From Patescibacteria group bacterium (GTDB lineage: Bacteria > Patescibacteriota > Minisyncoccia > Minisyncoccales > JAHCRE01), in NCBI GenBank assembly GCA_020148055.1, contig JAHCRF010000005.1, positions 1 through 41,789 of the forward strand: a stretch of DNA of 41,789 nt, given 5' to 3'. The notes beneath the pieces are model-generated. The model saw only the letters and a list, made by a program, of their open reading frames with translations. It was not told the origin of the DNA and ran no database searches. A program made the translations under genes and the position numbers. Below are positions 4,022 to 14,883 of this stretch, one piece after another (the first letter of the stretch is position 1; each line of letters starts with the position of its first letter).

Positions 4022-4345
4022 TTACAATTTCAATTCCTCAAGCTCTTCTCCGACAGCTGGAGCTTTTCTTCCTCGAGTAGGACGAGCACCCTCTGGTTCC
4101 TCAATCTTTAGATTCACTCGAGCATGATTCTTTAGACCAACAATCCGGACTAAAGATCTAATCGCTCGAGCAGTAGAACCAGCTTTTCCAATAATCTGGC
4201 CCATATCTTCGGGGTTAACTTTCAGAGAAAGTAAAACTCCCATTTCGTCCACCTTTCTATCAATCTTCACATCTTCAGGGTGATCAACTAGAGCTTTTAT
4301 CACATACTCAAGGAATTCTTGATCAGCAGTATCTGTTTTTGGCAT
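4022..4345 (-). CDS. khpA: KH-domain RNA-binding protein (KhpA/YlqC family)
   Basis: FLEYVIKALVDHPEDVKI...EDMGQIIGKAGSTARAIRSLVRI (KH GxxG = GKAG); next to rpsP and trmD as is common. Confidence 0.9.
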   Translation of the reverse strand: MPKTDTADQEFLEYVIKALVDHPEDVKIDRKVDEMGVLLSLKVNPEDMGQIIGKAGSTARAIRSLVRIVGLKNHARVNLKIEEPEGARPTRGRKAPAVGEELEELKL

Positions 4346-4407
4346 AGTCGTCTCTTCTCTAAACCGCTATTGACGATTTCGAGATCATAACTGATAAAAA
4401 TCTTACA

Positions 4408-4480
4408 AGTAGCTCGACCTTTTCAGCCTTTTCTCTCTTTTAAGACATCGGAGATTCGGCTAAACTGAAAAAGCTACTAT
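4408..4480 (-). ncRNA. structured 5' leader or small RNA upstream of khpA
   Basis: AGTAGCT (4408-4414)/AGCTACT (4472-4478) plus TTTTCAG/CTGAAAA inner arms; predicted transcription start at base of stem from promoter 4487-4514. Confidence 0.45.
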
Positions 4481-4486
4481 TATCTA

Positions 4487-4514
4487 ATTATACTCTTTCC
4501 AAAATTCTTGTCAA
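4487..4514 (-). promoter_or_regulatory. sigma70-like promoter TTGACA-16-TATAAT, -35 within 17-bp palindrome
   Basis: Minus strand TTGACA(4514-4509), TATAAT(4492-4487); palindrome AATTCTTG-T-CAAGAATT at 4503-4519. Confidence 0.7.
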
Positions 4515-4566
4515 GAATTAAATTAACAAGAATAGTTTTCGGCATTGAGAAGAAAAAACCGTAATC

Positions 4567-4938: not shown

Positions 4939-4978
4939 AAATTTTTAATCTTTAAGCGAGGGAACCAAAAGTGATGGA

Positions 4979-5118
4979 ACCAATTTTTATGGACCATCCG
5001 CAGCGAGTTGGCATGGTCTCGCCGAAGGCGAGCAACTCGCGAGGAAATGAGCTTGCTCCTCGCTGGGGAGCAGAGCGTGTCCTAAAAATTGCGTTGCCGA
5101 GCGTATCACCAATTTTTA
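4979..5118. repeat. MITE-like multi-hairpin element between rnc and rpsP flanked by 11-bp direct repeats
   Basis: Direct repeats ACCAATTTTTA at 4979-4989 and 5108-5118; inverted repeat CAATTTTTA-t-GGAC (4981-4994)/GTCC-TAAAAATTG (5079-5091); internal hairpins CGAGTTG..CTCGCC-gaa-GGCGAG..CAACTCG, GCGAGGA..TCCTCGC, TGCTCC..GGAGCA. Confidence 0.65.
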
Positions 5119-13467: not shown

Positions 13468-13539
13468 ACCCAATGGGGAGATTTGTATCTACTACTGGGT
13501 AAAGGTCGAAATAAAGCATAAAACCCAAATTAAAAAATA

Positions 13540-14883
13540 ATGACTAAAAAAACTTTATTCTTCTTGGTAGTCTTGGTGATTTTCTCTTTAGGTTTTGGTT
13601 TTTCTGCTATCTCCCAAGAAGAAGTATCGCCTGAAATAACTGAAGCTGTTAATCTTGATGAAGATATCCAGCCTGAAGATCTTGAAGTAGGTGAACCGAG
13701 AATCTTACCAGGTCATCCTTTATATTTCCTGAAAAACTGGGCAAGATCAATTAGATTATTTTTTGCCTTCCGTCCGGTTACTAAAGCTGAACTCAGATTA
13801 AAATTTGCCAATGAAAGATTGATAGAGGTAAAAAAAATAATTGAAGTAAAGAGAGATCCAAACAATATCAAAAAAGGAATAGAAAATTATCAGCAAGAAA
13901 TAGAAAAAATTAAAGCTCAAACAGAGAGAATTAGAGAAAGGGCAAGAGAAAATCAAAGAGTAGAAGGCTTCTTAGATAAATTTTTGCATCAGGAGATTTT
14001 ACACCAAAAACTCCTTTCAAAATTAGAAGATCAGGTTCCATCTGAAGCATTCGAAAAAATAAAAGAAGCCAGAGAAAGGCATTTGGAAAGCTTTCAAGAG
14101 GTAATGCTAAAATTAGAAGACAGGAAAGAAATAATTGCTGAAAAATTAGATGAAACTCTGGAAAAACAAAAGGGTTCAAAATACAAAAATTTCAAGAATT
14201 TAGAAATCTTGTTGCAATTAGAAGAAAAAGTTCCAGAAGAAGCTAAAGAAGCAATAAGAAAAGCCCAGGAAAATTCCTTAAAAAGACTAAAAGGAGATTT
14301 GGAAAAGATGAGTCCTGAAGACCAAGAAAGATTCGAGAGATACCTTGAGGGAATTTCCGGAGAAGAAGAAAAACAGCTCGAAATAATGGAAAATCTTAGA
14401 TTGGAGTTGAGAGAAAGAACGGAAATTGGGGAAAGAATAATAAGAGTTAGAGAAAGAATTATGGAGAGAGTAAGAGAGAGAGTTGAAGAGCTAAAATGTC
14501 CGGAAATAGAAAAACCGGCTCCCGATTTCTGTAGAGAAGGAAGAATTATAATAAAAAGAGATGAAGAAGGTTGTATAATTTCTTTCGACTGCCTAATCCC
14601 AGCTGACATCGAAATTTCTCCCAAACCAGAAAAACCAGCAGCTTGTATTACTTTGTGGAATCCGGTTTGCAGTAAAGATGGGAAAACCTATTCCAATGCC
14701 TGCTTTGCTAAATTAGCTGGTGCAGAAATTGCTTATAAGGGAAAATGTAAAGAAGTGGAATGTACAACTGATGCCGACTGTCCCCAACCGAGATGTGGTC
14801 CGGCAGGCACTATAAGTGCTAGATGTATCAACGTGGAAGCTAAGTGTATAGGGGGAAAGTGTCAAATTCAAGCGACACCTTAA
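13540..14883 (+). CDS. secreted DUF5667-like protein with Cys-rich C-terminus including a Kazal-type inhibitor domain
   Basis: Signal peptide MTKKTLFFLVVLVIFSLGFGFSAIS; PGHPLYFLKNWARSIRLFFAFRPVTKAELRLKFANERL; CITLWNPVCSKDGKTYSNACFAKLAGAEIAYKGKC matches Kazal spacing. Confidence 0.8.
   Translation: MTKKTLFFLVVLVIFSLGFGFSAISQEEVSPEITEAVNLDEDIQPEDLEVGEPRILPGHPLYFLKNWARSIRLFFAFRPVTKAELRLKFANERLIEVKKIIEVKRDPNNIKKGIENYQQEIEKIKAQTERIRERARENQRVEGFLDKFLHQEILHQKLLSKLEDQVPSEAFEKIKEARERHLESFQEVMLKLEDRKEIIAEKLDETLEKQKGSKYKNFKNLEILLQLEEKVPEEAKEAIRKAQENSLKRLKGDLEKMSPEDQERFERYLEGISGEEEKQLEIMENLRLELRERTEIGERIIRVRERIMERVRERVEELKCPEIEKPAPDFCREGRIIIKRDEEGCIISFDCLIPADIEISPKPEKPAACITLWNPVCSKDGKTYSNACFAKLAGAEIAYKGKCKEVECTTDADCPQPRCGPAGTISARCINVEAKCIGGKCQIQATP

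Follow-up and report, generated by a model that had tools for sequence, protein, structure and literature searches.

A hairpin-bearing khpA leader and a candidate 5′-UTR octamer element shared by many genes in Patescibacteria

The khpA gene in this Patescibacteria genome has a 5′ leader in which a predicted hairpin displays the octamer AAAGGUCG, and it is probable that AAAGGUCG is an RNA-level cis element of a regulon, read by a trans-acting factor. According to the mechanism that we favour, a near-perfect sigma70-type promoter would place the transcript start at or near the first base of the stem closing a 5′-terminal hairpin, which would present AAAGGUCG immediately 5′ of the closing strand. 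The same RNA element would be common to roughly a dozen genes of the genome. A trans-acting RNA-binding or ribosome-associated factor most likely reads it, and binding of the factor would change translation initiation or mRNA stability. Binding of this factor, its effect on translation or stability with the direction of that effect, and regulation of khpA through the octamer are what we infer; khpA is best read as the most elaborate target of the octamer regulon. Post-transcriptional gene control is almost unstudied in bacteria of the candidate phyla radiation, most of which are uncultivable. A conserved 8-nt RNA element that has defined targets and lies within a limited range of the start codon would provide a testable handle on how messages are chosen by ribosomes without an anti-Shine-Dalgarno (anti-SD) sequence and on the role of KhpA-type proteins in these bacteria.

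The khpA leader in the window

The window, which is the whole stretch of 41,789 nucleotides analysed, comes from an assembly of 487 kb in 14 contigs that is 91.6% complete (G000); its host resembles Nealsonbacteria. Gene calls (506 genes), start codons and 5′-UTR classes were obtained with simple scripts. The hairpin is followed by khpA and then trmD, and preceded by rpsP and rnc, both named from sequence. KhpA is 73-95% identical among relatives of the same order, and the named proteins closest to it are from Nealsonbacteria, Staskawiczbacteria, Wildermuthbacteria and other Parcubacteria/Paceibacterota. The intergenic stretch between rnc and rpsP (window 4970-5105) is G+C-rich and repeat-like relative to its surroundings; the khpA leader differs from it. 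The features are collected in Table 1.

Table 1. Positions of the khpA leader features, of a second octamer copy and of the 16S genes used for comparison.
Feature	Position or locus	Strand	Remarks
khpA	4022..4345	-	KH-domain RNA-binding protein, 107 aa; gene served by the leader; PF13083, 75.3 bits
5′-terminal leader hairpin of khpA mRNA (predicted)	4408..4478	-	fold z -3.1; stem kept or covarying across leaders
Octamer AAAGGTCG (AAAGGUCG in RNA)	4415..4422	-	77 nt before khpA ATG, beside the closing stem strand
-10 hexamer TATAAT, khpA promoter	4487..4492	-	part of 12/12 promoter match
-35 hexamer TTGACA, khpA promoter	4509..4514	-	part of 12/12 promoter match
Second octamer copy in the window	13501..13508	+	39 nt before the ATG of a secreted protein (13540-14883) with DUF5667 and Kazal-type protease-inhibitor domains
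16S genes examined	L383, L384, L385, L386		relatives G001, G020, G005 and G047, respectively

The near-consensus promoter reported in a preliminary description of this DNA is borne out: with a spacer of 16 nt it matches the consensus at every position and is one of only 7 such promoters in the genome. Judged from its position, transcription of khpA would start near 4478. The outer stem, in which AGTAGCT (4478-4472) pairs with AGCTACT (4414-4408) on the minus strand, begins 8 nt past the -10 hexamer and thus at the expected +1, in agreement with the earlier placement of a stem at this predicted start. The 72-nt hairpin has a folding energy of -23.4 kcal/mol against a mean of -14.5 for shuffled sequences (z -3.1), with 1 of 200 shuffles as good, while the whole 135-nt leader folds less remarkably (z -1.9). 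The hairpin originally proposed holds up beyond chance expectation, but its inner arms, TTTTCAG/CTGAAAA and GCC/GGC, are not exactly matched in the minimum-energy fold, where the inner pairing is UUUAGCC/GGCUGAA. When set against 4227 Rfam families the window reached the gathering score for tRNAs only, and at E up to 5 no credible match was seen between positions 4300 and 4600.

Conservation of the leader among relatives

Of 60 relatives, khpA was located in 54. In most of these the upstream region is built alike: there is a strong promoter, and AAAGGUCG directly precedes the 3′ strand of a stem that begins close to the expected +1. These three features recur before khpA across the order, whatever gene is found upstream. 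The exact octamer is also present in 68 of the 80 khpA loci of a second, named collection; with both collections pooled there are 118 distinct khpA leaders, of which 98 contain exact AAAGGTCG and 109 contain GGTCG. The octamer is the most conserved part of the predicted leader. In 82 of 112 distinct leaders the promoter matches 11-12 of the 12 consensus positions. The stem is absent from many khpA leaders, so the structure is optional, and the octamer is kept in stemless leaders such as L032, L052 and L057.

Where the stem is present its two strands change together. Wherever the 3′ strand contains CTACT, which is the case in 46 khpA leaders, its pairing partner is present at the predicted start of the transcript. 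For the 61 leaders with other 3′ strands the helices average 8.3 with their own partners versus 5.8 with swapped partners, and none of 500 swapped-partner permutations reached the observed mean, so that the search for compensatory changes suggested at the outset gave a positive answer. Stems that have been replaced and still pair include GGGUAG/CUACCC, UGUAGUUCU/AGAGCUACG, GCAG/CUGC, AUAGCGGU/GUCGCUAU and GGGUAU/AUACCC. These compensatory changes support a structure at the RNA level that is nevertheless optional, and the comparisons establish the predicted khpA leader RNA as conserved, its stem covarying and its octamer nearly invariant. Outside the order, khpA leaders of the same class often have the looser form (A/C)GGUCG(A) of the octamer, which in several of them remains within a hairpin.

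Some leaders show further features. Two copies of (A)AAGGTCG, approximately 15-50 nt apart, are found in L013, L015, L058, L217 and L476. An inner second hairpin, GATTCTC(C)...GAGAGAATC, is detected by a strict pattern in 13 of 118 khpA leaders and in none of the shuffled sequences; its carriers include L005, L006, L008, L012, L013, L017, L023, L037, L056, L107 and L131, and a looser form is present in G000. In two genomes khpA is present twice with the copies close together (L020 and L034 in G020; L047 in G054), each copy having its own leader with the octamer or an octamer-like word.

The octamer in front of other genes

The octamer, and its copies before many other genes, had been missed in the preliminary description. 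AAAGGTCG has 27 sites in the genome, which is not above the frequency of a reversed control, and it is the placement alone that is unusual: about half of the sites are intergenic and 30-83 nt upstream of a start codon on the same strand. In an unbiased k-mer count on G000, AAGGTCG is the top word of 5′ intergenic DNA once promoter and tRNA words are excluded, with 14 sense and no antisense occurrences where 1.5 would be expected. The genes that follow the octamer in G000 include those for two LemA-like proteins, a type IV pilin, a T4SS pilin, Hsp20, DUF3467, DUF5679 and DUF5320 proteins, a FIST protein, a rubrerythrin-like protein, a short-chain-dehydrogenase-like protein named from its sequence and, within the window, the secreted DUF5667/Kazal protein of Table 1.

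Across 13 genomes, some of which were only sampled, 96 sense and 5 antisense octamer sites were counted in 5′ UTRs (66:2 plus 30:3). Outside khpA the octamer is usually found without a hairpin, and its distance to the ATG is 29-50 nt at 48 of 61 sites, a range within which the khpA octamer of G000, at 77 nt, does not fall. In a directed test, exact AAAGGTCG preceded DUF5679 in 26 of 30 genomes, mostly 30-52 nt upstream. DUF5679, the dehydrogenase, LemA, pilin and Hsp20 beside DUF3467 recur as targets across families, and in further genomes targets resemble SSB, GroES, HU and a mechanosensitive channel in sequence. The sense orientation, the spacing to the ATG and the common target genes establish the octamer, at the level of sequence, as a sense-strand element of the 5′ UTRs of a conserved gene set. 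No published description was found in the open-access literature on KhpA/KhpB, the octamer, DUF5679 or anti-SD sequences of the candidate phyla radiation; judged from Rfam 15 and open-access papers only, this points to an undescribed element.

A possible role in translation initiation

The 16S 3′ tails of four relatives, GGATCACTTCATTT, GGATCACTACATTT, GGATCATTAAATTT and GGATCACTTCTTTT, have no CCUCC, a result that covers G001, G020, G005 and G047, the G000 assembly itself containing no 16S; in G000, SD motifs are found before few genes (6-9%). With such tails and so few SD motifs, the spacing between octamer and ATG makes a role in translation initiation worth considering. It is conceivable, if less probable than a regulon read by a trans-acting factor, that the octamer is an initiation or ribosome-recruitment signal which replaces SD pairing in a lineage without an anti-SD. 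Besides the 16S ends and the scarcity of SD motifs, the tight distance to the ATG and the resemblance of many targets to abundant proteins would be consistent with this. However, the octamer is found in just approximately 5% of genes with leaders, so that most are translated without it. Nor does it behave as an SD sequence: it is not complementary to the four 16S tails, it lies mostly at 29-50 nt rather than 5-12 nt before the start, and with 16S only short matches are seen, none of them a convincing complement. The regions of these short matches are broadly conserved. A role as SD substitute in particular genes was rejected, as the SD motifs of genes with the octamer are no weaker than those of others (permutation p 0.34). 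Just as tentatively, in a large Patescibacterial lineage that would have lost its anti-SD, AAAGGUCG at about -40 may be a sequence-specific mRNA tag read by the translation machinery or by a dedicated factor, which would recruit ribosomes to defined messages or stabilise them, the khpA version being displayed on a hairpin.

The octamer resembles an SD sequence in its purine-rich AAAGG part and in its restricted distance to the start codon, but differs in that it lies approximately 40 nt out, its UCG is invariant and the examined 16S tails have no CCUCC. A comparable situation is known from the Bacteroidia, where initiation is SD-independent, the anti-SD being kept but sequestered, and where the extended SD of rpsU is a special case (PMC9976891). 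That lineage also hardly uses the SD and has a special signal on some messages; here, in contrast, the four tails examined are without the anti-SD, and the signal has neither sequence nor position in common with theirs.

Candidate readers of the octamer

KhpA, alone or with KhpB, might bind AAAGGUCG and so combine autoregulation of khpA with a post-transcriptional regulon. We consider this rather doubtful. In its favour, no other target is as deeply conserved or as elaborate as khpA, whose KH-domain product shows unusual conservation within the order. Against this, G003, G044 and G056 (91, 100 and 99% complete) yielded no KhpA and yet retain the element before several genes, G003 above all, whereas a KhpA regulon would be expected to lose it together with khpA. 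The octamer is also absent from the khpB leader of G000. Because the regulon persists in genomes without detectable khpA, KhpA as an obligatory reader was rejected. DUF5679 was likewise rejected in this role, as G018 and G023, without a detected DUF5679, have clear regulons. In G042 and G031, where neither protein was found (86-87% complete), there are one and three 5′-UTR sites, respectively. KhpB-like open reading frames, with a weak PF13083 match, are present in most khpA-less genomes, and KhpB or a ribosomal component is a possible reader.

The khpA leader resembles the autoregulatory leaders of ribosomal- and RNA-binding-protein genes: a conserved structured leader precedes a gene for an RNA-binding protein and combines a covarying stem with a near-invariant single-stranded motif. 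It differs from them in that the motif is common to many unrelated genes and the stem is optional, and also in that the octamer regulon persists where no KhpA is found, KhpA binding being putative here. In CsrA sites a hairpin located at the SD carries the GGA core. The regulons of CsrA/RsmA type similarly have one short RNA word in many mRNA leaders, sometimes displayed in a hairpin loop, but the word here is AAAGGUCG and lies approximately 40 nt upstream of the ATG.

DNA-level readings, a small RNA and the palindrome

An RNA element read by a trans-acting factor accounts better for the orientation of the octamer than does a DNA element, either a transcription-factor site or an element of the initially transcribed region near the promoter, which we regard as improbable. 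In khpA leaders the octamer does follow strong promoters at a short distance, and in other targets it lies modestly near promoters. However, nearly all sites share one orientation (96:5), the gap between -10 hexamer and octamer in khpA leaders spans 8 to 118 nt, a wider spread than that of the spacing to the ATG, and the covariation of the khpA stem is that of an RNA.

The preliminary description had left open whether the hairpin belongs to a regulated small RNA or to a structured 5′ leader of khpA. A strong promoter of its own and a stable hairpin would suit a separate small RNA, but with no terminator-like site between hairpin and khpA, and with the hairpin directly upstream of khpA in every relative examined whatever precedes it, this is very improbable. 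The second option was upheld, since the leader recurs across the order with compensatory changes in its stem and runs on to khpA without such a site.

The palindrome over the -35 hexamer, AATTCTTG-T-CAAGAATT at 4503-4519, is as described an exact one of 17 bp; its reading as a repressor operator controlling khpA is the least credible of all and was rejected, the palindrome being neither conserved nor rare. At orthologous khpA promoters its arms are reduced to 4 in a same-genus relative, 6 in a same-family relative and 2-3 in most others, and the genome holds 46 perfect 8-1-8 palindromes, about one per 10.6 kb. The search for a matching palindrome, proposed with the operator, found nothing closer than 2 mismatches elsewhere in the genome. 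The TTGACAA core is palindromic by itself, and the palindrome is best read as the product of base composition and this intrinsic symmetry.
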